From a virus: DNA of 20,323 bases. Within the stretch, counting starts at the first letter, position 1. Every line of letters begins with the position of its first letter. Shown one piece after another: positions 2,187 through 16,900 of this stretch. The position numbers and the translations under genes are program-made. The notes below the pieces were generated by a model, which made no database searches, was not told the DNA's origin, and worked only from the letters and a program-made list of their open reading frames with translations. The stretch is taken from IMG/VR virus record IMGVR_UViG_3300005471_000058, positions 1 through 20,323 of that record. The stretch is one strand, 5' to 3'.

Positions 2187-2436
2187 CCGGTTATCGCCTC
2201 CGTTTAGGCGCTGGCGAAACTTCGCAAAGCGGGGCTTCTCAAAGGTCGGAATGTCACCTTGCTGAGGTCCGGAAATGGCACAAAGCGGACCTCCCGGAAT
2301 GTCCGCTGTTCGGTCCATATCGGCGCAAGGCAGACACGAGTAAGCCCTCCCTTAGGCGTCCTGGACCCGTCTCTGTGACAGCAGAGCTAGCAGCCCATTT
2401 AGCACCTGAATCCGACCGCTCGAAAAAATTGAATCA
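2187..2436. other. Intergenic junction between cyclase gene and phage block
   Basis: No gene is supported. A short open frame at 2183-2446 overlaps the cyclase stop and reads through repeat-like sequence, so I treat it as spurious. The segment contains GTCCG/CGGAC words related to those upstream of the cyclase and a hairpin at 2284-2307. The chromosome-to-phage boundary probably lies within or just after this stretch, because the duplicated phage leader begins at 2437. Confidence 0.45.
2284..2307. terminator. Hairpin downstream of the cyclase gene, possible terminator
   Basis: AGCGGAC (2284-2290) pairs with GTCCGCT (2301-2307) across a 10-nt loop, about 100 nt after the cyclase stop. No T-run follows, so intrinsic termination is doubtful. 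It may simply be part of the repeat-like sequence around this gene. Confidence 0.3.
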
Positions 2437-2552
2437 AGGCGCTTGACTTCCAGGCGCAACGTTGTGGCCTATCCCTGCCGACACTCATTGAGAGAGGTTC
2501 GGCACGATGGCCCCAAGCGGCCCCTTCATTCCGAAAACACTTGAAGACGACA
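2437..2552 (+). repeat. Leader/start direct repeat, copy A
   Basis: This 116-bp segment matches 2733-2848 without indels at a constant offset of 296 bp; by hand I count about 97 identical positions (roughly 84 percent). The match covers a TTGACT box, an invariant GAGAGAGGTTCGGCA ribosome-binding stretch, and the first codons of a gene. Copy A encodes MAPSGPFIPKTLEDD, copy B MTASGPFFPPTPDDD. Similarity stops after the Asp-rich codons. Copy A is therefore the head of a duplicated or deleted gene. Confidence 0.85.
2443..2474 (+). promoter_or_regulatory. Candidate sigma-70-type promoter, copy A
   Basis: TTGACT at 2443-2448 fits a -35 box. A TATCC-containing stretch about 20 nt on is the only -10 candidate, and the spacing is longer than ideal. 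The boxes are conserved in copy B while bases between them vary, which gives modest support for function. Confidence 0.35.
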
Positions 2553-2563
2553 CGTCGTCCAAT

Positions 2564-2600
2564 TCCGATCGTGACCGCCGGGCATCGGTCACGATTCGGA
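2564..2600. repeat. Inverted repeat 1
   Basis: TCCGATCGTGACC on the left pairs with GGTCACGATTCGGA (2587-2600), with one bulged base and a 10-nt loop. It lies between the two leader copies and immediately abuts the second, larger inverted repeat. Confidence 0.7.
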
Positions 2601-2661
2601 GGGCGCCGGCGGTTGAGGGAGTGGGGCTCTGCCGATTCCTTCACTCCCGCCGCCGGCGCCC
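2601..2661. repeat. Inverted repeat 2, long GC-rich hairpin
   Basis: The left arm at 2601-2623 starts GGGCGCCGGCGG and ends GGGAGTG. The right arm at 2642-2661 is CACTCCCGCCGCCGGCGCCC. They pair over about 19 bp with a small internal asymmetry, around an 18-nt loop. No T-run follows. It could be a REP/MITE-like remnant, a strong RNA structure, or a protein-binding site. Confidence 0.75.
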
Positions 2662-2732
2662 ACTGATTGCAGGACCGCTCAAGCGCGCTGCAGGAGTCCT
2701 CAACTGCGCCGGCGCTCCAAAAAAAGTTCGCG

Positions 2733-2848
2733 AGGCGCTTGACTCCCGGGCGCAATGTTGTGGCGTATCCCCGCCGACACTCACCGAGAGAGGTTCGGCA
2801 GCATGACCGCAAGCGGTCCCTTCTTCCCGCCAACGCCTGATGACGACG
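2733..2848 (+). repeat. Leader/start direct repeat, copy B (drives the intact gene)
   Basis: This is the second copy of the leader, directly upstream of and including the first 15 codons of the intact small gene at 2803. It keeps the same TTGACT box, RBS and start geometry as copy A. Confidence 0.85.
2739..2770 (+). promoter_or_regulatory. Candidate sigma-70-type promoter, copy B
   Basis: TTGACT at 2739-2744 and TATCC at 2766-2770 repeat the arrangement of copy A. They lie about 35-60 nt before the first intact phage gene and could drive the head operon. The -10 match is weak. Confidence 0.35.
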
Positions 2849-3123
2849 GACCTGCGCGCGCGGCCCGCGAGCAGCGGCTCCGCCGCGCGCGCGAAGTCCT
2901 GTCGGACGCCGGCTGGCTGTTCGACGACTTCGTCAACGCCGAGATGCGCAAGGTGCTGGTGAGCAAGCCCGACGAGCGTGAGGTGCGCGAGGAAGCCCAT
3001 CGCCGCGCCCGCGTGGCGACCGAGATGAAGGCCGGACTGGAATGCCTGATCGAGCAACACGAGGCCGACATGCGGCTGCAGGAGCGCCGCGAACGAGACA
3101 AGGAGAAGAGACATGGACGGTGA
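2803..3123 (+). CDS. Small helical phage protein preceding the scaffold gene
   Basis: This 106-residue protein has a Pro/Asp-rich N-terminus (MTASGPFFPPTPDDD) followed by charged, Arg/Glu-rich helix to the end, with coiled-coil potential over about residues 20-105. I do not recognise a named family. Its position directly before the scaffold gene, where portal-proximal genes usually lie, suggests a head-assembly accessory. I chose ATG 2803 because GAGAGAGG lies about 10 nt upstream and the equivalent start is preserved in the upstream duplicate; an in-frame start at 2755 falls inside the leader. Its 3' end overlaps the scaffold start by 11 nt. There is no signal peptide or membrane segment. 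Confidence 0.75.
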   Translation: MTASGPFFPPTPDDDGPARAAREQRLRRAREVLSDAGWLFDDFVNAEMRKVLVSKPDEREVREEAHRRARVATEMKAGLECLIEQHEADMRLQERRERDKEKRHGR

Positions 3124-4117
3124 GCAGGAAACCATGATGCCGGAATCGGCGGACATGGAAGAAGCGGTAGCGCTAATGGATCACGCTTCGGAGCAGGAAG
3201 AGGGCCTGGAGCCTCCTCCTTCGACGGAGGCTTCGCAGGATGAGGAGCTCGCGCAGGAGAGCGAGCCCTCCGAAGCCGAAGGCGAAGGAGGGGAGGCGCC
3301 CGAATTCTGGAGCGCTGAGGACAAGGCCACCTGGAACGCGATCCCCGCCGAATTGCGGCCGGTGCTGAAGAAGTACGAGCAGCAGCGGGTCGAGTTCGCC
3401 AACGAAAAGGCGCGCGAGGCTGCCACCGTACGCGCCCAGGCGACCGCAGATGTGCAGCGCGCCAATGCGGCGGCCGACGAGGCCGCGGCATGGTGGCGCC
3501 AGCACGGGCCGGCCTTGCAGAAGGCCTTCGCCGACAAGTGGTCGGCCATCAACTGGAAGGAGCTGGCCGAGAAGGACCCCGCCGAATACGCGAAGCTCAA
3601 CGAGCAGCGCCAGCAGGAGCAGGCGGCGGTCGTCGAGGCCAACCGGCGCGGCCAGGCCGAGATCGAGGCCGCCAATGCGCGCGCCGAGCAGGCGCTGCAG
3701 CAGTTCAAGCAGGCCGAGCACGCCAAGCTCGCGGCGAAGCTGCCCGACTATTTCGGCACGGCCGAGGCCGCCCGGAAAACCTACGACGAGCTGGGCAAGT
3801 TCCTGTTCGCCAAGGGCATCCCGGCCGACCGCATCAGCCAAATCCACGAGGCCCCGATCATCGAGCTTGCACTCAGCGCCATGCGCTTCGAGCAGGCCCA
3901 GAGGCATGCCCTGCGAAGCCGCCAAAGCGGCGAAGCAGGGAGCACCCGTAACGCAACACCGACCCGCGTCGCTCCCGGACCGGCATCAGCGCCTTCACAG
4001 GCGCGCGCCGGCAACCGCAACGCCGACGCGGCCCGGCAAGTGGGCGAGCGGTTTCACAAGAGCGGCGGCACCTCGATCGCGGACGCGGCCGAGCTGATTC
4101 GCCTCAACGGACTCTAA
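3113..4117 (+). CDS. Phage capsid scaffold protein
   Basis: This 334-residue protein has the profile of a tailed-phage scaffolding protein. The first 65 residues are very acidic (Glu/Asp/Ser-rich), followed by a WSAEDKATWNAIPAELRPVL segment typical of this group. A long Ala/Gln/Glu-rich coiled coil spans about residues 85-210, then come a basic tail and a C-terminal short helix (SIADAAELIRLNGL) of the kind that contacts the coat protein. It would guide procapsid assembly and leave before DNA packaging. The start ATG 3113 has AAGGAG at 3100-3105. The next gene is the major capsid protein, the usual order. No protease domain is visible, so this is not a protease-scaffold fusion. Confidence 0.85.
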   Translation: MDGEQETMMPESADMEEAVALMDHASEQEEGLEPPPSTEASQDEELAQESEPSEAEGEGGEAPEFWSAEDKATWNAIPAELRPVLKKYEQQRVEFANEKAREAATVRAQATADVQRANAAADEAAAWWRQHGPALQKAFADKWSAINWKELAEKDPAEYAKLNEQRQQEQAAVVEANRRGQAEIEAANARAEQALQQFKQAEHAKLAAKLPDYFGTAEAARKTYDELGKFLFAKGIPADRISQIHEAPIIELALSAMRFEQAQRHALRSRQSGEAGSTRNATPTRVAPGPASAPSQARAGNRNADAARQVGERFHKSGGTSIADAAELIRLNGL

Positions 4118-4125
4118 CCCTAAGA

Positions 4126-4149
4126 GCGCCTCAGAAGGCGCAGAGGAGG
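4126..4149 (+). promoter_or_regulatory. Hairpin and strong RBS in front of the capsid gene
   Basis: GCGCCT (4126-4131) and AGGCGC (4136-4141) form a perfect 6-bp stem with a CAGA loop, directly abutting the purine-rich RBS GAGGAGG at 4143-4149. The RBS decides the unusual TTG start at 4155. A stem placed against the RBS could stabilise a 5' end or modulate initiation of the most needed virion protein; that role is inferred. Confidence 0.55.
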
Positions 4150-4154
4150 CTGCC

Positions 4155-5105
4155 TTGGCGGCACCGACCAACACCCTCATCACCAACAATGCCGTGGGCA
4201 ATCGCGAATCGCTGCACGACATCATCAAGATCCTGAACAAGGACGAGACGCCGTTCCAGAGCGCCATCGGCTCGGGCTCGGCGGAAGCGACCTACGAGGA
4301 ATGGCAGCTCGACGCGCTCGGCAACGCCGACACGACGAACGCCCAGCTCGAAGGCGACGACAGCACCGCGGCGGCGATCACCCCGACCACGCGCGTCGGC
4401 AACCGCACGCAGATCCTGAAGAAGCCGTTCACCATCTCCAACACCCAGGAGGTCGTGAAGAAGGCCGGCCGCGACAGCGAGATCAGCTACCAGACCGCGC
4501 TGGCCGGCCGCCGCATCAAGATGGACCTCGAGGCGATCGTCTCGCAGAACCAGGCCTCCAACGCGCAGGCCGGCGCTACCCCGCGCCGCATGGGCGGCTT
4601 CGAAAGCTGGCTCGTCTCGAACGTCTCGCGCGGCGCCACCGGCACGTCGGGCGGCTTCAGCGCCGGCAACACCGTGGCGCCGACCGACGGCACGCAGCGC
4701 CCCTCGACCGAGGCGTTGCTCAAGACCGTCATCAAGTCGGCCTGGAACGGCGGCGGCAAGCCCACGCTCCTGCTGATGGGCGCGACCCAGAAGCAGAACT
4801 TCTCGGGCTTCACCGGCATCGCCACGCAGTACCAGGAGCCCAAGAACAAGATGGCCACGGTGATCGGCGCGGTCGATCGCTACGTGTCGGACTTTGGCAC
4901 GATGAATGCCGTCGCCAGTCGTTACATGCGCGGCCGCGAGATCGGCGTCATCGATCCGTCGCTGTGGCGCGTCCTGTGGCTGCGCAAGTGGAAGAAGGAG
5001 GAGCTCGCCAAGACCGGCGACGCGCGGAAGTTCCACATCGTCGGCGAAGTGACGCTCGAAAGCCGCAACGAGGCCGGCAGCGGCATCGTCGCCGACCTCA
5101 CCTGA
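4155..5105 (+). CDS. Major capsid protein (SU10/DUF5309-like)
   Basis: This 316-residue protein resembles the HK97-fold major capsid proteins of SU10-like podoviruses (DUF5309). It has an N-terminal arm (AAPTNTLITNNAVGNRESLH), a DETPFQSAIGSG segment, and a helical spine-like region around residues 90-130 (QEVVKKAGRDSEISYQ, then KMDLEAIVSQNQAS). Later come KPTLLLMGATQKQNFSGF and a C-terminal region with a YVSDFGTMNAV strand and VIDPSLW, as expected for the P domain. It forms the icosahedral shell. The start is TTG 4155, chosen because GAGGAGG precedes it and no upstream in-frame ATG or GTG is available. It sits directly after the scaffold gene. Confidence 0.9.
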   Translation: MAAPTNTLITNNAVGNRESLHDIIKILNKDETPFQSAIGSGSAEATYEEWQLDALGNADTTNAQLEGDDSTAAAITPTTRVGNRTQILKKPFTISNTQEVVKKAGRDSEISYQTALAGRRIKMDLEAIVSQNQASNAQAGATPRRMGGFESWLVSNVSRGATGTSGGFSAGNTVAPTDGTQRPSTEALLKTVIKSAWNGGGKPTLLLMGATQKQNFSGFTGIATQYQEPKNKMATVIGAVDRYVSDFGTMNAVASRYMRGREIGVIDPSLWRVLWLRKWKKEELAKTGDARKFHIVGEVTLESRNEAGSGIVADLT

Positions 5106-5119
5106 TAGGAGCACTCGCC

Positions 5120-5374
5120 ATGACCGACACTCCCACCGCACCCGAAACCCAAAGCGAAACCCAGGCCGAAGCGCCCAAGGTCCCGCCGATCGCCGAGGTC
5201 GTCATCACCGTCGACCACGTCTACCTGCCGATCGACGCCACCGGAAATGTTCCCATCGACTGGGCGGTGTCTAACGTTTCGACATCCAAGGTTTTGAAAC
5301 GCACCCGATTGCAGGTGCCGGACGAGCTGGCCCTGCTGCTGCACAAGCAGGACCAGGCGGAGATCGTCAAATGA
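5120..5374 (+). CDS. Small conserved-position phage protein, unknown function
   Basis: This 84-residue protein has a Thr/Glu/Pro-rich flexible N-terminus (about residues 1-24) and a compact part with strand-like sequence (VVITVDHVYLPIDATGNVP) and a C-terminal helix (ELALLLHKQDQAEIVK). I do not recognise the family. Its place between the capsid protein and the adaptor suggests a head-decoration or head-completion role, but this is inferred from order only. AGGAG at 5107-5111 supports ATG 5120. Its stop overlaps the next start as ATGA. Confidence 0.75.
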   Translation: MTDTPTAPETQSETQAEAPKVPPIAEVVITVDHVYLPIDATGNVPIDWAVSNVSTSKVLKRTRLQVPDELALLLHKQDQAEIVK

Positions 5375-5694
5375 GCCAGCAGCTTCTCGGCTGGGACCCG
5401 CAGACCGGCCTCGCGCAGTGGTGGCTCGAGGACGGCGAGGGCAACTGGGCGCAAAAGGCGTCCCAGCAGGCCACGCCCATCCTCGACCTCAACAAGGAGG
5501 CCGCCAACCACTGCAATCCGTACAACGCCGAGCGCGACGTCCGCCTGGTGGCGCGCATTCCGCTGATCATCGTCGCCAAATGGCGCAACGAGCTCGGCGT
5601 CGACTACTGGAACCCCGACCACCAGGCCAAGGTCGACGCGCTCTTGAACGATCCCGAATGGCGCTGGCTGCGCACTGACAAGGGGATGGTGTGA
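5371..5694 (+). CDS. Conserved phage head-tail region protein
   Basis: This 107-residue soluble protein has the signature segments of a phage family found between capsid and adaptor genes in short-tailed phages: PILDLNKEAANHCNPYN, RDVRLVARIPLIIVAKWRNE, and a C-terminal LLNDPEWRWLRT. I recognise the pattern but know no assigned biochemical function, so a virion or assembly role is inferred from order. The start overlaps the preceding stop (ATGA at 5371-5374), and the stop overlaps the adaptor start as TGATG, implying translational coupling. Confidence 0.78.
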   Translation: MSQQLLGWDPQTGLAQWWLEDGEGNWAQKASQQATPILDLNKEAANHCNPYNAERDVRLVARIPLIIVAKWRNELGVDYWNPDHQAKVDALLNDPEWRWLRTDKGMV

Positions 5695-6365
5695 TGGCCG
5701 CGCAGATCACCACCTACGGCGGCCTGAAAGCGGGCGTCCTGGCCTGGCTGGCGCGCACCGGCGACACGCTGCTCGATTCGCGGTTCGACGACTTCCTGCT
5801 GAACTGCGAGCGCCGCATCTACTACGGCCACGCCACCGAGGATGCCGGCAATCCGCTGCGCTCCGATCCGCTGCGCATCGTCGAGATGGAGACGGTCGAC
5901 CCGGCCTTCGCTCTCTCCGCGGTCACGCCGCAGCCCGCCAGCTTCCTCGAGCTGATCTCGGCCCAGCTCAACAGCCCCAACGCCCCGCTGCAGATCGTGG
6001 GCCAGCGCACGATCGACGGCTACGCCTCGTCGATGCCCGACCAGCCGCGTCTGATCGCCATCAGCGGCACGAATTTCCGCGTCTTCCCCGATCCCGGCGC
6101 CGGGACTTACTTCGCGACGCTGCGCTACTACCAGAAGCTCGCGACGCCGGCCGGCGCCGTGGTCAACGCCATCCTGACCAACAGCCCCGACGTCTATCTC
6201 TACGGCTGCCTGGTCGAGGCTGCCATCTTCACCCAGGACGAGCAGGGGGCGCTGCGCTACCTGCCGCTCTACAACGCCAGCGTCGCCGGCCTCAACGCAC
6301 GCACGCAGCGCATCACCGCCTCCTCGGTGCCGGTGATCCGCCTGCGCGCGGGGATGGCGCCATGA
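5694..6365 (+). CDS. Phage adaptor / head-tail connector protein (P22 gp4-like)
   Basis: This 223-residue protein matches the adaptor family of podoviruses, which forms the ring between portal and nozzle. It has an N-terminal TYGGLKAGVLAWLARTGD segment, a DDFLLNCERRI helix, a middle region with PASFLELISAQLNSP where family members typically read YL-P-DFLE, an ISGTNFRVFPDPGAGTYFATL strand pair, and LRYYQKLATPA followed by the LTNSPDVYLYGCLVEAA helix. A GTG at 5691 is in frame, but ATG 5694 keeps the usual TGATG coupling with the previous stop. Its partner, the portal, is not encoded in this window. The nozzle gene lies one gene downstream. Confidence 0.87.
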   Translation: MAAQITTYGGLKAGVLAWLARTGDTLLDSRFDDFLLNCERRIYYGHATEDAGNPLRSDPLRIVEMETVDPAFALSAVTPQPASFLELISAQLNSPNAPLQIVGQRTIDGYASSMPDQPRLIAISGTNFRVFPDPGAGTYFATLRYYQKLATPAGAVVNAILTNSPDVYLYGCLVEAAIFTQDEQGALRYLPLYNASVAGLNARTQRITASSVPVIRLRAGMAP

Positions 6366-7330
6366 CCGACCCTGGCTACACGGCGGCCTCTGCTCCGGCC
6401 GCATTGCGCGACGCCTACACGGCGCTGGAGCCGGATCCCAACGCCGACTACGGCACGGTGCTTCCTTTTGCGCGTGACCGCACGACCGGAGAAAAGCGCT
6501 GGGCCATGCCGTCGATGGTCCGCGACCTGCTGGGCGGTTGGCTCGATCTGCTGGCCGGCGTGGATACGGGGGAGGTTACACCACGGGCAGCGATGCAGAT
6601 TGGCCTTGGCGGTTTGGGTGCCGGTGGCGCACTCGCGCCGCGCGGAGCGTTGGCGATCGGCGGCGCGAGAAATCAGCTGGCGGAGGATTTCGCCGGCCGC
6701 ATGGCCCAGGCCCGCGGCATGGGATTCAACGTCGATCGTCCTCTGTTTCATGGGACCCCGGCGCCGGACTTTCCGGCGTTTGCGCCGCTTCCTTCGTGGG
6801 AGGCGGTTCGAACGGGTCGGGCACCAGGTATCTGGACAGCGGAGAATCCAGAGGTCGCGGCGAATTTTTCAGCTCCAGAACTGCGCGAACGAGTTCTTCT
6901 GGCGGCATCGCCGGGGAATCCGGCGTCTCCGGAAAGCACACCACGTATTTTACCATTGTTCGGCCGCTCCGAGAATGCGGCGCCGCCATTGACACTGGCG
7001 CCCGGGGATCGATGGGGCGACATCAACCGCACGATCGCTGACTTGTTCGCCGGCGGTCACGATGCCGTTCAGTTGCGGAATTATAGAATGTTTCCGGAAC
7101 TGGGGCCACAGAGCATCTGGGGCTTTCGCGATCCCAACCAGTTGCGTTCCTGGTTCGCCCGCTTCGATCCCAACAAGCGCTCCAGCGACGACCTTCTAGC
7201 CGCGCGTGCGGTGCCGGGTTTCAACTTTGTGCCGCCGCCGCAACCCGGCTTCAACGTCATGCCGCCGCCCGAGCCCGGCATGCGCATTCCGATCAAGGCC
7301 GGCCGCTCGGCGGCGGAGATGGAATTCTGA
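6362..7330 (+). CDS. Virion-region protein with ADP-ribosyltransferase-like domain
   Basis: This 322-residue protein has an N-terminal segment (1-125) with an amphipathic, Gly-rich stretch at about 80-105. Next comes an ART-like domain of the polyvalent-protein type: LFHGT with H130, GIWTAENPEVAANFS at the usual second motif, and then GGHDAVQLRN leading to SIWGFRDPNQLRSWFARFDP. ART domains transfer ADP-ribose from NAD+ to targets. A phage virion ART could be delivered with the DNA to modify host proteins; here that is inferred. The tail holds tandem PGFNFVPPPQ / PGFNVMPPPE repeats (285-307). Codons of about 6720-7090 are markedly richer in A/T-ending and rare forms (CGA, TTA, CCA) than the flanking genes, suggesting separate acquisition of the domain. 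It overlaps both neighbours (ATGA, TGATG). I cannot confirm the third catalytic residue. Confidence 0.75.
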   Translation: MTDPGYTAASAPAALRDAYTALEPDPNADYGTVLPFARDRTTGEKRWAMPSMVRDLLGGWLDLLAGVDTGEVTPRAAMQIGLGGLGAGGALAPRGALAIGGARNQLAEDFAGRMAQARGMGFNVDRPLFHGTPAPDFPAFAPLPSWEAVRTGRAPGIWTAENPEVAANFSAPELRERVLLAASPGNPASPESTPRILPLFGRSENAAPPLTLAPGDRWGDINRTIADLFAGGHDAVQLRNYRMFPELGPQSIWGFRDPNQLRSWFARFDPNKRSSDDLLAARAVPGFNFVPPPQPGFNVMPPPEPGMRIPIKAGRSAAEMEF

Positions 7331-8817
7331 TGGCCCCCATGATCCCCTTCGCCGAATGGCGGCCCGACATGCCCGATCTCAGCGAGTGGGCGCGCGAGGC
7401 GCTGAACGTCATCCCGGCCGAGGAGAGCTATCGGCCGCTCAATGCGCTCTCCAGCGTCTCCAACGCCTTGACGGCGCGCGCCCAGGGCGCGGCCTGGTTC
7501 CGCGGCACCGCCGGCGCGGTAAAAATGTTCGCCGGCGATGCGACGAAGCTCTACCTGCTGTCGGGCACCACCTGGAGCGACGTTTCCCGCACCGCGGGTG
7601 GCGCCTATTCGCCCGGCGGCGATGGCACCTGGCGCTTCACCCAGTTCGGCACGCTCGCGATCGCCGTGAACGGCGTCGACGCGCCGCAGAAGTTCGACCT
7701 CGGCGTCGGCGCCAACTGGACGGCGCTGGGCGGCAGCCCGCCGATCGGCACCTATGTCTGCACGGTCAAGAACTTCGTGCTGATGGGCAAGATTGGCAGC
7801 ACGCCGCAGCGCGTGCAGTACTCCGGCATCGACAACGCCGAGATCTGGGGCGCCGTCGCGGCCAACCAGGCCGGCTTCCAGGACCTGCCCGACGGCGGCA
7901 ATGTCACCGGCCTGGTCGGCGGCGAGCTCGCGGTCATCTTCCAGGAAGCCGCGGTGCGTCGCATGACCTACGAAGGCGCGCCGGTCGTCTTCCGCATCGA
8001 CAAGATCGCCAACGATCTCGGCTGCAGCGTGCCGGGCAGCGTCGCCGGCCTGCTCGACCGCGCGTTCTTCGTGCACAAGTCGGGCTTCTACATGGTGCAG
8101 GGCGGCCAGGCGATCACGCCGATCGGCCGCGGCAAGATCGATCGCACTTTCTGGGCCGAATTCGACGAGACCAACCAGTTCCGCTGCAGCGCCGCCATCG
8201 ATCCGGTGCGTGGGCTCTACATCTTCGCCTATCCGGCGAACGGCAACGGCGGGGTGCCCAATCGGCTGCTGATCTACAACTGGACCACCGAGCGCTGGGC
8301 CCACGCCCAGGTCGCCTGCGAGCTGGTGTTCGGCGGCGTCAGCCAGCAGGGCTACACGGTCGAGCAGCTCGACCCGTTCGGCACCGTCGACACGCTGCCT
8401 TACTCGACCGACTCCTCGTTCTGGACCGGCACGGTCTCGCTGCTGCTGTTCGCTTTCGACACCAGCCACAAGAGCGGCTCGTTCTCCGGCCCGACCTTGG
8501 CGGCGACGGTGGAGACCGGCGAGTTCAATCCCTCGGCGATGCTCGGGACAGGTCCCGGCAACGGCAAGCGCACGGTGATCCGCGGCTGCCGGCCGCTGAT
8601 CGACGGCGGCAGCCCGCAGATCTCGCTCGGCTGTCGCGAAACGCAGCAGGTGGCTGTAACCTACGGTCCCCCGATCGGGCTCACGCCCGCGGGCTTGGCG
8701 CCGGTGCTGCAGAGCGGGCGCTATTTCCGCGCGCGCGCCACCATGCCCGCGGCCACGACCTGGTCGAACATGCAGGGCATCGACGACCTCGACGCCCGGC
8801 CGGCAGGTGGCCAATGA
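7330..8817 (+). CDS. Phage tail nozzle / DNA stabilisation protein (gp10-like)
   Basis: This 495-residue, strand-rich protein fits the podoviral nozzle family (P22 gp10 / T7 tail tube B type). It starts with a target-trimming N-terminus (PFAEWRPDMPDLSEWAREALNVIP), followed by repeated beta-propeller-like blades: YLLSGTTWSDVSR, FTQFGTLAIAVNGVDAPQKF, and WTALGGSPPIGTYVCTVKNF. Then come FFVHKSGFYMVQGGQAITPIG and an LLIYNWTTERWAHA blade before a C-terminal barrel. It would sit below the adaptor ring and close the DNA channel. The start ATG 7330 overlaps the previous stop (TGATG). A second ATG at 7339 is possible. The stop overlaps the next start (ATGA). Confidence 0.85.
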   Translation: MAPMIPFAEWRPDMPDLSEWAREALNVIPAEESYRPLNALSSVSNALTARAQGAAWFRGTAGAVKMFAGDATKLYLLSGTTWSDVSRTAGGAYSPGGDGTWRFTQFGTLAIAVNGVDAPQKFDLGVGANWTALGGSPPIGTYVCTVKNFVLMGKIGSTPQRVQYSGIDNAEIWGAVAANQAGFQDLPDGGNVTGLVGGELAVIFQEAAVRRMTYEGAPVVFRIDKIANDLGCSVPGSVAGLLDRAFFVHKSGFYMVQGGQAITPIGRGKIDRTFWAEFDETNQFRCSAAIDPVRGLYIFAYPANGNGGVPNRLLIYNWTTERWAHAQVACELVFGGVSQQGYTVEQLDPFGTVDTLPYSTDSSFWTGTVSLLLFAFDTSHKSGSFSGPTLAATVETGEFNPSAMLGTGPGNGKRTVIRGCRPLIDGGSPQISLGCRETQQVAVTYGPPIGLTPAGLAPVLQSGRYFRARATMPAATTWSNMQGIDDLDARPAGGQ

Positions 8818-9392
8818 GTTTGCCCGCGCTGCCGCCCGAAGCCGACACCCGCTCGATCACCGAGCGGCTGAACGTGCTGATCCGCGACTACAACCAGCAG
8901 CTCCGCACGCCGCCGGGCGTCATCCTGCCCTTCGCCGGCGCGACCGCTCCCGACGGTTTCCTGCTCTGTTACGGCCAGGCGGTGTCGCGCAACACCTACT
9001 CCGATCTCTTCGCCGCGATCGGCACGACCTATGGCGTCGGCGACGGCTCGACCACGTTCAACGTCCCCGACCTCCGCGGCCGCGTCGCCGCCGGCAAGGA
9101 CGACATGGGCGGCACGGCCGCCAACAGGATCACGAACGGTGGCTCGGGGATCGTCGGCACGGCTCTGGGCGCGGCCGGCGGCGCGGAAACCCACACGCTC
9201 ACGACGGGCCAGATTCCGCCGCACAACCACACTGTTGTGGGCGGCGATACGACGCCTGCCTCCTTCACCAGCCGGGCCGGCCAGGGCGACGGCAACAACA
9301 ACTACAACTGGAACACCAGTTCTGCCGGCGGCGGCGGCGCGCACAACAACACGCAGCCCACCATCATCCTCAACCACGTCATCAGCACATGA
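8814..9392 (+). CDS. Short tail-collar domain fibre protein
   Basis: This 192-residue protein carries a phage tail collar domain: VILPFAGATAPDGFLLCYGQ, then the DGSTTFNVPDLRGRV signature, then a Gly/Asn-rich tip with HTLTTGQIPPHNHTVVGG. It ends QPTIILNHVIST. The first 30 residues form only a short helix (ITERLNVLIRDYNQQL), so there is no long shaft; it may bind another fibre or the nozzle. It is a close paralogue of the C-terminal half of the fibre encoded at 11371-12310. A role in receptor binding or tail-tip structure is inferred from the domain. ATGA overlaps join it to both neighbours. Confidence 0.87.
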   Translation: MSLPALPPEADTRSITERLNVLIRDYNQQLRTPPGVILPFAGATAPDGFLLCYGQAVSRNTYSDLFAAIGTTYGVGDGSTTFNVPDLRGRVAAGKDDMGGTAANRITNGGSGIVGTALGAAGGAETHTLTTGQIPPHNHTVVGGDTTPASFTSRAGQGDGNNNYNWNTSSAGGGGAHNNTQPTIILNHVIST

Positions 9393-9805
9393 CCTGCGGC
9401 GGCATCCTCCTCAGCGATCTCCACCTCGTGTGGCACGAGCTCTGGCCGTTGCTCGAGCCGGCGGTGAAGCGCTCGCCCGACAAGCCGGACGTGCTGGCGC
9501 GCCTGATTGCGCGCGATGCCCAGCTCTGGGCGGTCTACGAGGGCGCCACGCCGGTGGCCGCGATCGTCACCACGATCCAGGTCGCAACGGAAAAGCGCTG
9601 CCTGATCTGGCTGGTCGGCGGCTCGCGGCTCGGCGAATGGGCGGCCGATTTCCTCGCCAAGGTCGAGGCGTGGGCGCGCTCGCTCGGTTGCGTCGCGCTG
9701 TGGGGCGCCGGCCGCAGGGGCTGGACGCGGATGGCGGAGAAATTCGGCGGCAGGAGCATCGGCATCATCGACGGACAACTCGCTTGGGAACGGAGGTTTG
9801 CATGA
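9389..9805 (+). CDS. GNAT-like phage protein (T7 gp13-like position)
   Basis: This 138-residue protein has the layout of a GNAT fold: an N-terminal helix pair, then LWAVYEGATPVAAIVTTIQV and LIWLVGGSRLGEWAADFLAK strands, a KVEAWARSLGCVALWGAGR helix-strand unit, and a short C-terminal strand. Similar small GNAT-like proteins lie in the internal-virion gene cluster of T7-type phages (gp13). Here it lies just before the S74-domain protein, supporting a role in assembly or ejection rather than metabolism. I see no clear acetyl-CoA-binding Q/RxxGxG/A motif, so it may be structural. Starts and stops overlap neighbours as ATGA. Confidence 0.7.
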   Translation: MTCGGILLSDLHLVWHELWPLLEPAVKRSPDKPDVLARLIARDAQLWAVYEGATPVAAIVTTIQVATEKRCLIWLVGGSRLGEWAADFLAKVEAWARSLGCVALWGAGRRGWTRMAEKFGGRSIGIIDGQLAWERRFA

Positions 9806-10905
9806 GCGGCGGCCAGACACCGAGTCAATCGAACTCGTATCAGACACAGCAGACCACGAGCACGAGCGAGCCCTCGCCGTTCCTCCAGCCGTACCTCAAG
9901 CAGCTGGTCGGCAACGTGGGCAATCTGCTCGACAAGAATCCCAACGCGCCGGCCTACTATCCGGGCCAGACAGTGGCGACGCCGTCGGTGGCCACGCAAT
10001 CGTACCAGCAGACGCTGCGCGATCTCGGCACCAACGGGCTGGGCTACGGCATCGACGCGGCGAGCCGGCAGAACGCCGCCGACACGCTCGCCGGCAAGTA
10101 CCTCGATCCGGCCAACAATCCGTGGCTGCAGAAGTCGCTGGCGGCGGGCTTCGGGACGCAGAACGAGCAGTTCAACAACACCGTCTTGCCGAGCCTGCGC
10201 AGCCAGTTCGCGGCGGCCGGGCGCACCGGGGCGAGCGAAGACTTCGACACGACGATGCGCGCCGCCAAGGATCTCGGCCAGACACAGGCCAATGCCGCGG
10301 CGAACGCCGAGCTGGGCGCCTACAACAACGAGCGCGGCCTCCAGCAGCAGGTGCAGGGCATGCTGCCGTCGTTCCAGGGCATGGATCTCGCGCGGGCCTC
10401 GGCGCTCGGCCAGTCCGGGCAGGGCATCGATGCCTACAACCAGGCGCTGATCGACGATCAGATCAAGCGCTACACCTACGACAAGACCGCCAACCTCAAT
10501 TATTGGAGCGACATCGCCCAGCGGATGCTCGGCATGTATCCCGGCGGCACGACCAGCGGCACCGGAACCAGCTCGGGCTATACGCAGTCCATCCAGGGCA
10601 CCAATCCGCTTGCAACCGCGCTCAACGCGGGGATGAAGGGCGTCGGCATGCTGCTGCCGTTCCTGCCCGGCTTCGGTGCATCTGACGAGCGGCTGAAGAC
10701 CGACATCAGGCCCGTCGGCAGGCTGAACGACGGCCAGAACGTCTACAGCTATCGCTTGCGCGGCAGCCCACGCACGGAGATCGGCCTGCTGGCGCAGGAG
10801 GTCGAGAAGGAACACCCCGACGCCGTCGCCATGCATCCGGCTGGCTTCAAGATGGTCCACTACGGCCGTGCCACGGCCAATGCCGCACCGGGAGGGCTGA
10901 TGTGA
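9802..10905 (+). CDS. Virion protein with C-terminal S74 intramolecular chaperone domain
   Basis: This 367-residue protein has two parts. Residues 1-285 are Gln/Ala/Asn-rich and mostly helical (PFLQPYLKQLVGNVGNLLDK, LRSQFAAAGRTGASEDFDTT), resembling internal ejection proteins of short-tailed phages. A hydrophobic Gly-rich helix lies just before residue 290. The C-terminal part begins at S294-D295 (SDERLKTDI) and continues with YSYRL, EIGLLAQEVEKEHPDAV and MVHYGRA: this is the S74 endosialidase-type chaperone, which helps trimer folding and usually cuts itself off at the Ser-Asp bond. The domain normally ends fibres; here it ends a protein that looks like an ejection or tail-needle component. 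ATG 9802 overlaps the previous stop (ATGA). Confidence 0.8.
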   Translation: MSGGQTPSQSNSYQTQQTTSTSEPSPFLQPYLKQLVGNVGNLLDKNPNAPAYYPGQTVATPSVATQSYQQTLRDLGTNGLGYGIDAASRQNAADTLAGKYLDPANNPWLQKSLAAGFGTQNEQFNNTVLPSLRSQFAAAGRTGASEDFDTTMRAAKDLGQTQANAAANAELGAYNNERGLQQQVQGMLPSFQGMDLARASALGQSGQGIDAYNQALIDDQIKRYTYDKTANLNYWSDIAQRMLGMYPGGTTSGTGTSSGYTQSIQGTNPLATALNAGMKGVGMLLPFLPGFGASDERLKTDIRPVGRLNDGQNVYSYRLRGSPRTEIGLLAQEVEKEHPDAVAMHPAGFKMVHYGRATANAAPGGLM

Positions 10906-11327
10906 TGGTTCCAGGCTTCAACGTTCGCGACGGCGGCCCCGTGCAGCCGGTCAACATGCAGCAGCTTGCGCTCGCGGGCTTTCGGCCGCCGCCGGTCATG
11001 AGCATGCCGGGGCTGCCTCAGGCCCCGCAAGCCGGCCCGACGCCGGGCTTCAACGTGGACGATGCCGCGGGGCTGCTCAAGGCGGCGCTGGGCGCGTTCG
11101 GCAAGGACGACCCCGGTGCCGCCGCCCAGGCGACGGCCAACGCGGCCGACGCCAGCGTGCAGGCCAATCCGGGAACCAGCATCGCAGGCATGCGAGCGGG
11201 CACCAATCCCGATTTCGGCATCGTGGCGCAGAGCATGATGCCGCCGCCGGATGGCAGCAGCGGCGTCGGGCTGCCCACGCGCGTCGATTTCCTCACCGGC
11301 CTGTTGACCAGGTTGGGATTGAGGTGA
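10905..11327 (+). CDS. Pro/Ala-rich phage protein with PGFNV motifs
   Basis: This 140-residue protein has no recognised domain. It starts MVPGFNVRDGG and repeats PGFNVDD at residues 47-53, the same motif found at the C-terminus of the ART-domain protein. A Pro-rich stretch (RPPPVMSMPGLPQAPQAGP) separates the copies, then an Ala-rich helix (AAGLLKAALGAFGKDDPG), and it ends with a helix RVDFLTGLLTRLGLR. It may be a virion-internal or assembly factor. ATG 10905 has GGAGGG at 10891-10896 and overlaps the previous stop (TGATG); a GTG at 10902 is the alternative start. After it the operon opens with a 43-nt gap. Confidence 0.68.
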   Translation: MVPGFNVRDGGPVQPVNMQQLALAGFRPPPVMSMPGLPQAPQAGPTPGFNVDDAAGLLKAALGAFGKDDPGAAAQATANAADASVQANPGTSIAGMRAGTNPDFGIVAQSMMPPPDGSSGVGLPTRVDFLTGLLTRLGLR

Positions 11328-11370
11328 CGGGCCATGGCTCAACGATCTCGTCGGCCGGCAGGAGCATAGC

Positions 11371-12310
11371 ATGGACATTGCAGCCAACAATTGGACTGAA
11401 ACCGATGGTAGCAATACCAGCGCAGCCCCCGACGGGGCGCCTGAGGGCATGGCGCCGTCGGGATTGAACGACGTGCTGCGGGCCCACCAAGGGGCGATGA
11501 AGCGCTGGTACAACTGGACGATCCCCAAGGTCACAGCGGGCACATCGACCGCTTACACCCTGACGTACGGCGTGGCACCGGGCGCCCTGGTCGACGGCAT
11601 GACGCACCTGGTGCAGTTCCACGCCGCCAACGGCAATCCCCCGACGCTCAATGTGAACAGCCTGGGCGCGATCCCGCTCTACTATCATTCGTCGGGAACG
11701 TGGCGGCCGGTCCCGGCGGCGCTGTGGGATACGGACGAGATCTTCAAGGTGGCCTACCATGCCAGCAGCGGCACCTATCGCGTGCTGCGGCCGGGCGCGG
11801 AGAAAACCGGGACGGTGAAGGCCTTCGCGGGCCCGACCGTGCCGGGCGGCTATCTGCTGTGCTTCGGCCAGGCGATCAGCCGCACCGCCTATGCCGGCCT
11901 CTTTGCCGTGCTCGGTGGCACGCATGGCAATGGCGACGGTTCAACCACCTTCAACCTTCCCGATTTGCGCGCGCGGGTCGCGATCGGCAAGGATGACATG
12001 GGGGGGCTCGCTCTCGGGGCGGCTCGACGGCACCGTGCCGCGCGCCACTCTCGGCGGCACGCTGGGCAGCCAGTACAACACGGCGACCACGACGGTGAGC
12101 GGCACAGCGGCGGGTTCGATCTCCGTCGGCGTGACCAAGGGCGGTCCATTTGCCGACGCTGCCGGCAGCACGGGCACAAACATGCTCTATGACGCATCGA
12201 CGCTCACTGCGAGCGGCAGCATCAGCGTACCCGTGGGAGCCGGCGGCACCTCCGGCGCCTTCTCGATCATGCAGCACGGCATGATCCTCAACCAGATAAT
12301 CGCGATCTAA
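11371..12310 (+). CDS. Long tail fibre with collar domain, frameshifted at a seven-G run
   Basis: The frame opened at ATG 11371 (AGGAG at 11360-11364) encodes a fibre N-terminus (NNWTETDGSNTS, GMAPSGLNDVLRAHQGAMKRWY), a strand-rich middle, and a collar domain (GYLLCFGQAISRTAYAG, DGSTTFNLPDLRARVAIG). After DDMGG it enters a run of seven G (12000-12006) and then reads an Arg/His-rich nonsense tail to a stop at 12192. The +1 frame from the same place continues sensibly (SLSGRLDGTVPRATLGGTLG) and ends SIMQHGMILNQIIAI at 12310, matching the paralogue's QPTIILNHVIST end. One G fewer would give an intact fibre of about 312 residues. Causes may be slippage, phase switching, decay or sequencing error. 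Confidence 0.85.
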
Positions 12311-12313
12311 GCG

Positions 12314-12565
12314 ATGACTACGTCAGGGCTTTTTCTCAATCCGAAGGACGTCACGGTCCGCAGCTTCGCCTTTGGCGTCCTTGATGGGTGCGGCGCCGGC
12401 GGGGCGGTGCTGTGGCGCATCCTGCTCCAGACCGCCGCACTCGGGCCGCAGTGGATCGGCTTCCAGGAGCCGCTGATGGGCTCGCCCGGCAACCTCTTGG
12501 AGGTGATCACGCTCACCGCCGTGACGGGCCTCATCTATGTCAACGCGCAGGGCTACACGGAGTAG
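12314..12565 (+). CDS. Small membrane protein of the lysis region, holin candidate
   Basis: This 83-residue protein has two hydrophobic stretches, about residues 18-42 (FAFGVLDGCGAGGAVLWRIL) and 60-78 (NLLEVITLTAVTGLIYVNA), joined by a Gly/Pro loop. It starts four bases after the fibre stop, with only a weak RBS. Position before a signal-less endolysin and two possible membrane helices make it a holin candidate, but I recognise no named holin family. Confidence 0.6.
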   Translation: MTTSGLFLNPKDVTVRSFAFGVLDGCGAGGAVLWRILLQTAALGPQWIGFQEPLMGSPGNLLEVITLTAVTGLIYVNAQGYTE

Positions 12566-12567
12566 CC

Positions 12568-12813
12568 ATGGATCCCGCCCTGAACGCCATCATCGGACCC
12601 TGGGCCCAGTTGGGCATCGTGGGCTCGGTGACGTTGGCACTCGGGGCCACGGTCTACCTGCAATGGCAGCATATCAAGGCGGTGACGGCGGCGCATCTCG
12701 CCGACGTCAAGGCCTTCGGCGAGAAATACGCCGACGTGCTGATCAAGAAGAGCGAATCGGACAATGCGCTCGCCAATGCCATCGAGCGCATCGGCGATCG
12801 GATCAAGCCATGA
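12568..12813 (+). CDS. Small phage membrane protein with cytoplasmic coiled tail, holin-like
   Basis: This 81-residue protein has one N-terminal membrane helix (about 8-30, PWAQLGIVGSVTLALGATVY) followed by a charged helical tail (KAVTAAHLADVKAFGEKYAD ... LANAIERIGDRIKP). Such one-helix proteins are common in lysis cassettes of alphaproteobacterial phages and may be a holin or holin modulator. Its stop overlaps the next start as ATGA (12810-12813). Confidence 0.65.
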   Translation: MDPALNAIIGPWAQLGIVGSVTLALGATVYLQWQHIKAVTAAHLADVKAFGEKYADVLIKKSESDNALANAIERIGDRIKP

Positions 12814-13016
12814 AGCCGCAGCCCTGTTTCGAGCCGCCGAGACACCTCGAGGAGATCGCCGAGCTCGCCGAGCGGCGCAAGCGCGAGGCCATCGCGCGGC
12901 TGAGGGAGAAGCTGGGCGAGGGCGACCGTTTCGAGCAGGCCATGCGCGACTCGGCGCATTCGCATGCGCCTGTGATCGACGCCGACAAGCGCGCTCTGCA
13001 GGAGAAGGGAAAATGA
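12810..13016 (+). CDS. Small charged lysis-cassette protein
   Basis: This 68-residue, strongly charged helical protein (PRHLEEIAELAERRKREAIA) has no membrane segment or signal. It sits between a holin-like gene and the endolysin and overlaps both as ATGA. Function is unknown; regulation or assembly within the lysis operon is possible by position. Confidence 0.65.
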   Translation: MKPQPCFEPPRHLEEIAELAERRKREAIARLREKLGEGDRFEQAMRDSAHSHAPVIDADKRALQEKGK

Positions 13017-13474
13017 AAAACTCAGACGCCGGCATTGCCCTGATCAAGGAATTCGAGGGCTGCGAGCTGGTCTGCTACGCCGATGCGGTCGGCGTGCCGA
13101 CGATCGGCTACGGCCACACGCTCGGGCTGACGCAAGCCGATGTCGGGGTGACGACGATCACCCAGGACGAGGCGGAACGCCTTCTACGCGAGGACGATCT
13201 GCCGCGCTACGAGGCCGGCGTCTCGGCCGCGGCGAAGGTCCCGCTCGAGCAGCACCAGTTCGATGCCCTGGTGAGCTTCGCCTACAACTTGGGCGTCGGC
13301 GCGCTCGCCGGCTCGACGCTGCTGCGCAAGCTGAACGCCAAAGACTATGGCGGCGCCGCATCAGAGTTTCCCCGATGGGTGCGCGCTGGCAACCAGGTGC
13401 TACCCGGCCTGGTCAGGCGGCGCGCCGCCGAGCAGGCGATGTTCGGCGGCGGGCAGGAAAGGGCGGCGGCATGA
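13013..13474 (+). CDS. Endolysin, GH24 (T4-type) lysozyme
   Basis: This 153-residue muramidase cleaves the peptidoglycan glycan backbone. The GH24 catalytic triad is complete with canonical spacing: E15, D24 and T30 (EFEGCELVCY, then YADAVGVPTIGYGHT). The family hallmarks QHQFDALVSFAYNLGVGAL and LRKLNAKDY...EFPRWVRAGNQVLPGLVRRR follow. There is no N-terminal signal or signal-anchor, so it should need a holin to reach the periplasm; candidates lie upstream at 12314 and 12568. ATG 13013 is behind GGAGAAGGGA and overlaps the previous stop (ATGA), as its own stop overlaps the spanin start. Confidence 0.95.
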   Translation: MKNSDAGIALIKEFEGCELVCYADAVGVPTIGYGHTLGLTQADVGVTTITQDEAERLLREDDLPRYEAGVSAAAKVPLEQHQFDALVSFAYNLGVGALAGSTLLRKLNAKDYGGAASEFPRWVRAGNQVLPGLVRRRAAEQAMFGGGQERAAA

Positions 13475-13908
13475 GCATCGTGACGAAGGCCGCGGAGACT
13501 GCGGCAGAGGGCGCCGTCGCCAGCGCTGGTGGCTTCCTGAGCGGCTTGAGCTGGCTGCCCTGGGCCATCGCCGCCGGCTCTCTCGCCATCGGCGCCGGCG
13601 GCACGCTCTGGTATCGCGCAGAGTGGAAGGACTGCCAAGCCTCGGTGGCGATCGACGCGGCCAAGGCCGAGGAAAAGGTCCGCGCCTAGAAAGACGCCGA
13701 CGCCAGGTTCACCCGCAGCCTGGCCGAGCAACTGAAGCCGATCACGGATGCGATCCAGGAGCAAACGAATGCCACGCAAATTGCGCTCGCCAAGGTCAAG
13801 AGCGACCCGAATTGCGCTCACACTCCTGCTGCCAATGCTTTTGACGGCGTCGTGCGGCCAGGTGGTGTCGAAGCCCGTCCTGGTCAATCGCGACCCGCCA
13901 GGCCCTGA
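13471..13908 (+). CDS. Inner-membrane spanin (Rz-like) interrupted by an in-frame TAG
   Basis: The frame from ATG 13471 encodes 72 residues with an N-terminal membrane helix (WLPWAIAAGSLAIGAGGTLW) and the start of a charged coiled helix (EWKDCQASVAIDAAKAEEKV), then stops at TAG 13687-13689. The same frame continues for another 72 codons to TGA 13906-13908 with convincing i-spanin sequence (DADARFTRSLAEQLKPITDA, QTNATQIALAKVKSDPNCAH). Joined, the two parts have the usual Rz length of about 145 residues. The TAG therefore truncates an otherwise intact gene, unless it is suppressed. An outer spanin gene is nested in another frame within the second half, the classical Rz/Rz1 arrangement. Confidence 0.82.
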
Positions 13909-14077
13909 CCTGACCGATTGCCCCGAGGAAACGCCGCCCGAGGTGTGGCCGTTCCCGGATGAGGCAGCGCGCTACCGCTGGTCGGCGGCGGCGATCGGCG
14001 CCGGCCGCGAATGTCGCGAGGTGCTGCGCAAGGCCAAGGACTGGATGCTGAAGCCGCCGGCCGATCGGGTGAGGTGA
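13769..14077 (+). CDS. Outer-membrane spanin lipoprotein (Rz1-like), nested in the Rz frame
   Basis: This 102-residue lipoprotein has a basic N-terminus, a hydrophobic core (IALTLLLPMLLTASC) ending in a lipobox-like TASC with lipidation at C29, and a Pro-rich stretch (PVLVNRDPPGPDLTDCPEET) typical of Rz1. A helical tail of about 40 residues makes it longer than lambda Rz1. It would link with the inner spanin to fuse inner and outer membranes in the last lysis step. I chose ATG 13769 because AGGAG (13757-13761) lies seven nt upstream; an ATG at 13748 would add seven residues. It overlaps the Rz frame by 140 nt. Confidence 0.82.
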   Translation: MPRKLRSPRSRATRIALTLLLPMLLTASCGQVVSKPVLVNRDPPGPDLTDCPEETPPEVWPFPDEAARYRWSAAAIGAGRECREVLRKAKDWMLKPPADRVR

Positions 14078-14322
14078 TGGGCGGTCGGCGCTTCCCCGTC
14101 CCCGTGGTGCTGGCTTTGGCTGTGGCTGCTGCCGTGGCGATGTACGCGGATAAGGCGCGCGCCGACAGTGCGGACGCCAGCCTGCTGCAGGCGTGCGTTG
14201 ATCCGGTCCTGGCGCCGGCCGAGTCGAGCGACAACGAGCTGGCGGCCGAGCGGCTGCGGGTGGCGAAGGCCTATCTCGACGGCAAGGCGCGGCATGCGGC
14301 GCTGGTCGACAGAGTGAAGTGA
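14077..14322 (+). CDS. Small exported protein following the spanins
   Basis: This 81-residue protein has an N-terminal signal peptide (RRFPVPVVLALAVAAAVAMY) with a plausible cut after DKARA, leaving about 52 residues of charged helix with one Cys (LLQACVDP, ERLRVAKAYLDGKARHAALV). I recognise no family. It starts at ATG 14077, overlapping the Rz1 stop (TGATG), so it belongs to the lysis operon and may act in the periplasm. Confidence 0.62.
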   Translation: MGGRRFPVPVVLALAVAAAVAMYADKARADSADASLLQACVDPVLAPAESSDNELAAERLRVAKAYLDGKARHAALVDRVK

Positions 14323-14341
14323 AGGCCGATATGATGGCCGG

Positions 14342-15427
14342 ATGGGTCTTATTCGGCTATTTCTCGCCTTGGACGTAGCGACCGATCACTGGCGAGTTAT
14401 CATGTTGCTCCCACTCTCGATCGAGCTCGATGACAAGTGGAAGTTTGGCTTCAATGCTAGCTTCGCGGTGATGTTCTTCTATGTAATCAGCGGCTTCTTG
14501 ATCACCTACACACTCAATCGAAACTACAGCCGCGATCTAGCCGGCGCCGGCAGGTTCTTCATCAACCGCTTCATCAGGATCTTCTCGCTCTACTGGCCGC
14601 TGGTCGCTCTTTCGTTTTTGGTGTTTGGTGGGGCCTGGGAGAGCTTCGCCGCCGCATCGCTACCCGACAAAGCGACGAGCCTGTTCTTGATCGGCATGGA
14701 CTGGCGACTGGCCTTTGCCTCATATCCAGAGCAGCATTGGGAGGCGGCGATCACGGTCATGCATCAGGCCTGGACGCTCGGCGCCGAGTTGACGTTCTAT
14801 CTGCTGGCACCGCTGCTGATGCGGTCATGGAAAATCGGGGCTGCGCTGCTGGTGGCATCGTTCGGGCTGCGCGCGGCGTTCGTCTATTCATCCGGCGTCG
14901 ATGTGCAGGAGCCTTGGACCTATCAATTCCTCGGCACGACGCTCGGCTTCTTCATGCTCGGGCACCTGGCCTGCCTGGCCGGCATGCGCTGGCGCTCGCT
15001 GGCTCAGCCGGCGATCGGCCTCCTGCTGCTGGTCTGCTCGTTCGCCACCATGCTTTACGCCACGCCCTGGATAGGCTTCGATACGACGCGATTTTGGGGC
15101 GCCGTGTTGCTGTTCGCCTTGGCGTTACCGGGGCTCTTCGAAGCGACCAAGGGTATTCGCTGGATGAACCTGCTCGGGGACTTGTCCTATCCGGTGTATC
15201 TGGTCCACACGGCCGTGCTGGTCCTGCTCGGCCCTTGGCTGATCAGTTTTGCTTTGCCGCTCGACGTCATGTCGAAGACCGAAGCCGGATGGCTATCGGT
15301 TGTCGCCTTCCTCGCGGTGACCATGCTGGCCGCCGCGACAGTCCACTGGCTGCTCGAGGTGCCTGCGGCGTATGCAATGCGCCGGCTGAGCGGCTGGCGG
15401 AAACGACCGGCGCCGCAAGGCGTTTAA
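14342..15427 (+). CDS. Acyltransferase-3 family membrane O-acyltransferase
   Basis: This 361-residue polytopic membrane protein belongs to the OafA/acyltransferase-3 family, which moves acetyl or other acyl groups onto surface polysaccharides. The N-terminal signature is present: RLFLALDVATDHW, with H16 at the catalytic-His position, then FFYVISGFLITYTL and RFFINRFIRIFSLYWPLVAL. About ten hydrophobic helices follow, with a final LGDLSYPVYLVHTAVL motif characteristic of the family. It starts 20 nt after the last lysis-operon gene. Serotype-converting phages carry such genes near the lysis or tail region to modify O-antigen of the lysogen, so lysogenic conversion is a reasonable inference. The RBS is weak, but this start retains the catalytic His. 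Confidence 0.9.
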   Translation: MGLIRLFLALDVATDHWRVIMLLPLSIELDDKWKFGFNASFAVMFFYVISGFLITYTLNRNYSRDLAGAGRFFINRFIRIFSLYWPLVALSFLVFGGAWESFAAASLPDKATSLFLIGMDWRLAFASYPEQHWEAAITVMHQAWTLGAELTFYLLAPLLMRSWKIGAALLVASFGLRAAFVYSSGVDVQEPWTYQFLGTTLGFFMLGHLACLAGMRWRSLAQPAIGLLLLVCSFATMLYATPWIGFDTTRFWGAVLLFALALPGLFEATKGIRWMNLLGDLSYPVYLVHTAVLVLLGPWLISFALPLDVMSKTEAGWLSVVAFLAVTMLAAATVHWLLEVPAAYAMRRLSGWRKRPAPQGV

Positions 15428-15646
15428 CCGCGATGCCCAACAAGCCCGAAACCCTGGCCCGAGCTCGCCGGCATGACGGACAACCGGCCGACGCAGTACC
15501 GGATGCCGAGCGCGATCGCCGGCGCGGCATGCGGCGATCTCGTCCGCATTTTCCTGGCATTCGTGGTAGCCGCCGAGGCAGGATTAGACCATCGGTCGGC
15601 CGTGAGTCTCGCCGGTAGAGTGCTAGCACCAGCAGATGTCACACCG
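15428..15646. other. Convergent intergenic region
   Basis: This is the 219-bp gap between the acyltransferase (+) and the HTH-type gene (-). A short + frame from 15473 runs antisense into the regulator gene and has no recognisable domain. The stretch holds a perfect 10-bp palindrome GTGCTAGCAC at 15620-15629. I see no strong terminator. Confidence 0.4.

Positions 15647-16823: not shown

Positions 16824-16900
<77 letters not shown>

Follow-up and report, generated by a model that had tools for sequence, protein, structure and literature searches.

Gene transfer agents (GTAs) of alphaproteobacteria follow a pattern that has been set out in a review covering RcGTA/CcGTA and BaGTA (PMC9662315). 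Here we analyse a complete IMG/VR record, IMGVR_UViG_3300005471_000058 (20,323 bp, hereafter the window), in which a gene that is missing is missing from a fragment. The window is probably the third and last late unit, together with the right flank, of a fixed, integrase-less, podovirus-derived and GTA-like locus of Reyranella. As in the alphaproteobacterial GTAs, packaging, virion and lysis genes of phage origin appear to descend vertically at one place in the chromosome, no integrase turned up, the genes are under purifying selection, control by repressors is predicted, and several transcription units seem to share their control; in CcGTA a single regulator, GafY, acts on many promoters (PMC11150451). 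Unlike RcGTA, CcGTA and BaGTA, the Reyranella locus has a capsid of the SU10/LUZ24-podovirus type, S24 repressors and late genes separated by defence cargo, and unlike the known GTAs it is known from its genes alone. With regard to the traits of the RcGTA family (Rhodogtaviriformidae), the capsid matches SU10_MCP and phrog_1328 and the block has no open reading frame (ORF) long enough for a typical tape measure protein, which speaks against membership as judged by these traits alone. No RcGTA-like head-tail cluster is predicted for Rhodospirillales in the table of PMC6821227, and our literature search found neither a GTA derived from a short-tailed phage nor any relevant literature on Reyranella prophages. 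That the locus really functions as a GTA is possible but doubtful, and particle production and DNA transfer are put forward as candidate activities.

Among phages with a described virion, LUZ24-like podoviruses, for example phiM5, come closest. Related capsids (40-43% identity) occur in phiM5 (Sinorhizobium), RHph_N3_2 (Rhizobium) and the Bradyrhizobium prophage ppBeUSDA76-2. The phiM5 order of large terminase subunit (TerL), portal, small gene, scaffold and capsid, in which the gene between portal and scaffold is similar in size to the one at 2803-3123 of the window, matches that of contiguous Reyranella relatives such as genome G011 and is interrupted in a split type. These LUZ24-like relatives are whole phages of 41-44 kb, unlike the Reyranella locus, and phiM5 keeps its virion genes contiguous, with none of the defence cargo that lies between packaging and head genes in the split Reyranella type.

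In viral contigs, a search with the capsid protein recovered 27 and then 29 loci; bacterial genomes contributed 10, all of them from Reyranella, Rhodospirillales or broader alphaproteobacterial bins. Some relatives (for example G011, G012, G013 and L018) have an uninterrupted series of small terminase subunit (TerS), TerL, portal, small gene, scaffold and capsid. A further group (L006, L012, L013, L014, L021, L023, L030, L032, L033 and L037) appears headless over several kilobases, as does the window. In four genomes with such a block, G001, G002, G003 and G004, a search of the genome located TerS, TerL and portal, with identities checked against PHROG, in the contig of the headless block and on its strand; the portal ends 8.6-10 kb before the capsid unit begins. 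In oriented local coordinates, TerL lies at 12.1-13.6 kb in G002 with the portal ending at 16.8 kb and the capsid unit starting at 25.5 kb; the TerL end, portal end and capsid unit start fall at 22.4, 27.7 and 37.5 kb in G003, at 9.6, 14.4 and 23.0 kb in G004, and at 17.9, 23.5 and 33.0 kb in G001a. TerL and portal are retained upstream wherever long genome context is available, in four of four cases. Headlessness in these cases reflects displacement rather than loss, and we hold with somewhat more confidence than the reading as a whole that TerL and portal lie upstream, past the left end of the window, in the genome it came from. TerS, TerL, portal, scaffold, capsid and tail genes are present in G001-G004, G011 and G012, and the endolysin in most of these.

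The late units (TerS-TerL, portal, and scaffold to lysis) are each headed by a repeat of about 90 bp, here called the P repeat. It comprises TTGAC, a conserved TTGTGGC(C/G)TAT and a stem, TGCCGA...TCGGCA, with the ribosome-binding site in its loop, and it ends at an ATG. From its position and its TTGAC box we infer that it is a promoter. A profile of the repeat (nhmmer) found one copy each before TerS, the portal and the capsid unit in G001a, G002, G003 and G004, two copies, at TerS and the capsid unit, in both G001b and G010, and none in the contiguous relatives. Units in relatives follow the order S24/HTH repressors, a gene termed u115, P-TerS-TerL, P-portal, and P-small gene-scaffold-capsid through to lysis. 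Copies from one element resemble each other more closely than copies from different elements do (similarity 0.78 vs 0.72, permutation p 0.006), as would be expected from shared regulation or gene conversion, and the two copies of the window are 83% identical to each other over 115 bp. Compared with shuffled sequences, the hairpin gave z -3.0 for copy 1 and -0.8, no better than shuffles, for copy 2. The idea that it is a conserved RNA structure was dropped: besides this second score, its stem is nearly invariant and offers no covariation to assess.

The original prediction, made from the window alone, described a podovirus virion and lysis module at 2437-15427 that lacked terminase, portal and integrase. 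PHROG and Pfam matches bear out the virion and lysis genes, and queries with TerS, TerL and portal gave no match in this fragment. A cyclase ORF does end just left of the block, at 2186, which leaves 246 bp to P copy 1. The left edge of the block is corrected, however, from the scaffold gene to the repeat at 2432, with the small gene at 2803-3123 preceding the scaffold. The frames are mostly intact as had been stated, with the exception of the second fibre gene, which is broken at a run of seven G. The features are as follows.

423-2186, plus strand: class III adenylate/guanylate cyclase with TPR repeats (Pfam Guanylate_cyc and TPR), cargo or host gene
2432-2527, plus strand: P copy 1, a promoter/leader-like repeat (nhmmer 6.6e-25)
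2729-2823, plus strand: P copy 2, directly 5' of the small gene (nhmmer 9.6e-23)
2803-3123, plus strand: conserved small gene heading the capsid unit (tblastn matches in most relatives holding the region)
3113-4117, plus strand: scaffold protein (phrog_3927, 5e-8)
4155-5105, plus strand: major capsid protein of the SU10-type family (phrog_1328, 1.1e-91; SU10_MCP PF17236, 1.1e-89)
5371-5694, plus strand: conserved virion-block gene without an assigned role (phrog_3982, 9.5e-22)
5691-6365, plus strand: adaptor-like head completion protein (phrog_2941, 1.1e-20)
6362-7330, plus strand: variable-slot gene, an alignment gap in most relatives (tblastn)
7330-8817, plus strand: nozzle-like tail structural protein (phrog_3287, 6e-69)
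8814-9392, plus strand: tail collar fibre 1 (phrog_9116, 4.5e-37)
9389-9805, plus strand: acetyltransferase-like small protein, weak match (phrog_1249, 0.038)
9802-10905, plus strand: virion/ejection-type protein with a C-terminal S74 chaperone (phrog_6121, 3.6e-22; phrog_4287, 7e-17; Peptidase_S74)
11371-12310, plus strand: tail collar fibre 2, frame broken near 12000
13001-13474, plus strand: endolysin, a phage lysozyme (phrog_7, 2.5e-63; PF00959)
13748-14077, plus strand: Rz-like spanin (phrog_456, 4e-4)
14342-15427, plus strand: membrane O-acyltransferase, right-end cargo (Acyl_transf_3, 2e-24)
16824-16900, minus strand: tRNA-Arg(CCG), the right-hand landmark (ARAGORN; 100% identity)
19679-19900, minus strand: SDR gene remnant, C-terminal 73 residues (tblastn 86%, blastn 86-87%)

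A treS-glgX-malQ-treY cluster adjoins the start of the element in G001a, G002, G003, G004, G010 and G011, where the neighbourhoods of G002 and G003 are seen partly, at contig ends. After treY come a small gene, named STAS-like by eye, then a gene of 126 aa and the S24/HTH repressor gene HTH1. A full-length treY of at least 85% identity occurs in exactly 7 of 65 Reyranella-group genomes; all seven carry the capsid or element, which is found in few of the 65 genomes beyond this group. In G003 and G004 the right side of the element is bordered by tRNA-Arg(CCG) and then an SDR gene, and the window carries the same tRNA on the same strand as in these genomes, with its SDR remnant 86% identical. Therefore, the window is most likely an allele of the treY-tRNA site. 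In many Reyranella genomes the 3' ~45-55 bp of tRNA-Arg(CCG) are duplicated, as at an integration hotspot for other elements. Integration of the present element at this tRNA by a tyrosine integrase was considered and rejected (no second tRNA 3' end within 40-60 kb in G003 and G004, and no integrase), and the tRNA-Arg is kept only as a nearby hotspot.

The integrase called absent by the original prediction also fails to appear more widely. A search for tyrosine integrases (Phage_integrase, PF00589) found no match in the window, in L010, L011, L014, L018, L019 and L026, or in most records of relatives overall, and inspection of the ORFs around complete elements, short of an exhaustive search, showed no replication genes. 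These results bear on whether the locus might be a working temperate phage, its integrase and replication genes lying outside the sampled stretches, as might be supposed from the Bradyrhizobium relative, a 41.8-kb prophage with recombination genes, and from the ~39-kb IMG/VR contigs L010 and L019. We regard this as quite improbable: the contiguous element of G012 spans about 16 kb and, on inspection, is flanked left and right by host genes, and the host treS-glgX-treY genes bound the left side in six genomes.

Across six pairs, dN/dS is about 0.06-0.46 for most genes, reaching 0.64 in some TerS and lysis comparisons. The comparison across related genomes that the original prediction had proposed was made, and for G004 vs G001a, both of them split, it gave dN/dS of 0.09 for TerL, 0.15 for the portal and 0.09 for the capsid. 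These low values show that selection has maintained the displaced packaging and portal genes. In the same pair, dS is 0.25-0.73 in the element and 0.36-0.48 in flanking host genes. A strict co-phylogeny of host and element was abandoned because pairwise distances are too star-like and tail genes are mosaic, and the case for vertical descent therefore rests on synteny and dS, from which the locus is read as a vertically kept chromosomal fixture. The suggestion in the original prediction that the host has kept a capsid/lysis cassette was thus close, the difference being that the whole locus is kept. Its suggestion of a split prophage was close as well, in that inserted cargo has moved terminase and portal ~9-16 kb upstream, still on the strand of the block, in four genomes.

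Several observations weigh against this reading of the window. The window ends 2.4 kb left of its first P copy, with its own terminase and portal out of view; the elements of L012, G001b and G013 may lie away from the treY site; u115 has no Pfam or PHROG match; and several of the relative genomes are metagenome-assembled genomes (MAGs), with two rpoB copies in G001. Tail genes are mosaic between genomes, from which it follows that exchange among related elements occurs, the capsid dN/dS between the window and L007 (0.31) is above that of other pairs, and the frame of fibre 2 in the window is broken. Finally, the 52.8-kb record L012 holds no TerL or portal. There, a repressor (HTH1), u115, a partial P repeat and the capsid unit with its small gene stand in direct succession (L012:4205-5997), apparently at another chromosomal place.

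L012 indicates that true loss of terminase and portal can occur, and a deletion, which the original prediction had listed, has this one apparent example. Applied to the window, it would mean that TerS, TerL and portal were removed, for instance by recombination between P copies, and that heads stay unfilled unless a related element in the same cell complements them. The two adjacent P copies of the window indicate that the repeat duplicates and recombines, and extra TerL copies in genomes of the clade could complement. A loss of the L012 type would leave HTH and u115 behind, and neither lies within the 2.4 kb left of the first P copy. Both copies bear the leader of the capsid unit and not that of TerS. 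Together with the upstream TerL and portal in all four genomes with long context, these leaders and the missing HTH/u115 signature favour displacement, and we consider deletion in the window unlikely.

Tail-gene mosaicism and the broken frames of fibre 2 in the window and of the nozzle gene in G001a, along with the S24 repressors and the integration hotspot at the neighbouring tRNA-Arg, could also be read as signs of an old temperate podovirus prophage that decays slowly, is refreshed at times by incoming relatives and has no host function. Such a history seems improbable to us in view of the low dN/dS, an element dS close to that of the flanks (also for TerS, TerL and portal after the split), the occurrence of the element in each of the seven treY-group genomes and the conservation of the P repeat ahead of every unit. 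A misassembly near 2437, raised in the original prediction, was rejected as unlikely: this kind of junction, with cargo abutting the P repeat, recurs in independent assemblies of isolate genomes and MAGs.

The reading as a fixed locus with displaced late units is further informed by a graded series of relatives. Contiguous elements without the P repeat are found in G011, G012 and G013, and in G010:C40 as far as the contig reaches. In G001b the repeat is present without cargo, the portal ending at 15609 and the repeat starting 8 bp on, at 15617. G010:C78 has a 1.2-kb gap between portal and capsid unit, and the four split genomes carry cargo in gaps of 8.6-10 kb. This series suggests that the start signal arrived first and cargo afterwards. 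A second intact TerS1-TerL1 pair in G002 and G003, orthologous to that of G011, indicates that the split type probably arose when a P-bearing block recombined into a resident locus. In L010, low-GC cargo lies between TerL and portal (L010:5031-6567; two ORFs without PADLOC matches); no P repeat was detected in L010, and cargo entry is therefore possible without the repeat.

The gaps have a GC fraction of 0.54-0.61, vs 0.67 in the virion genes, and they hold defence genes at a fixed position of the element in G001, G002 and G004. For example, the cargo of G002 includes SIR2 and HerA (E 1e-106 and 1e-125), that of G004 a caspase, ThiF/E1 with JAB (E1-E2-like) and a CapP-like peptidase, and that of G001 HNH/SAVED-like effectors and a DUF4238 protein, while PLD/NgoFVII-like, DUF2779 and metallophosphatase genes occupy the gap in G003. 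A protein of ~1,130-1,190 aa with PD-(D/E)XK, RNase H and AAA helicase parts is common to the cargo of G001, G002 and G004. Lambdoid morons, which are typically single genes with their own promoter and terminator, likewise place extra genes of different base composition between late structural genes. The Reyranella inserts differ in being blocks of several genes, and the new start signal belongs to the phage unit itself. Exchangeable anti-phage systems at fixed positions of phage-derived elements are also known from the defence hotspots of P2-like phages and P4-like satellites (PMC9122126); unlike these, the Reyranella cargo splits packaging from head late genes, with one copy of the start signal at every displaced unit.

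Tentatively, these features can be assembled into a model of a podovirus-type Reyranella GTA in which packaging, portal and capsid units are fired together by one signal and the gaps serve as exchangeable defence slots, all within one inherited locus. S24 repressors would keep the locus silent until DNA damage inactivates them, by cleavage or loss. A common activator, for which u115 is a candidate, would then act on all P copies together, and particles would be assembled as one set from three units despite their displacement. TerS/TerL would package mostly host DNA, a proposal made because inspection showed no replication or integration gene nearby, and host lysis would free the particles. If this is true, one fixed locus passes on the particle machinery along with an immune island. 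With a full set of packaging and virion genes under purifying selection, the fixed locus of Reyranella is a concrete candidate for a GTA, and its presence in a type strain, R. soli NBRC 108950, leaves it open to induction. The split design may also show how a late operon can take in cargo yet stay coordinated through a shared start signal, and where a prophage in a metagenome fragment is called 'headless', the call may be an artefact of cargo insertion.

TerL genes of this family, at various identities, occur in most of the 65 Reyranella genomes. Additional intact copies, 73-75% identical, lie at G003:C59:15613-17079, G003:C37:156925-158400, G004:C173:13973-15436 and G011:C170:2499-3974, with no matching portal among the matches listed, and they possibly belong to a second related element family. 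Among more distant relatives, a TerL of 35% identity lies on the same strand as a portal and 23 kb from it in G042:C1 (145223 and 169298), and another of 35% identity lies ~18 kb from a same-strand portal in G054:C1, across the contig join if circular (11631 and ~5433694); these distances may represent recurrent separation or an unrelated terminase.

Within the window, the cyclase-TPR gene occupies the sole visible cargo position and could equally be a host gene. It has no PADLOC match and was dropped as a diagnostic cargo gene, being uninformative as a member of a very large family of paralogs in which the best relative among the 65 Reyranella genomes is only 59% identical. Many adjacent genes of the virion block share a four-base overlap, the pattern of a single translation-coupled operon. 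At the slot between adaptor and nozzle (6362-7330), G011 and G012 have homologs of 41-43% identity, other relatives have different spacers and most lack the gene. The seven-G run at ~11999-12006 puts the second collar fibre gene in two frames, for which sequencing error, decay or slippage may be responsible, the three being indistinguishable. An ORF at 14011-14322 overlaps the spanin and is conserved in three relatives. To the right of the lysis genes, different membrane acyltransferases fill the same slot, the one at 14342-15427 in the window and an MBOAT protein in G003 (L080:9437-11026), and these are possibly surface-modifying genes.

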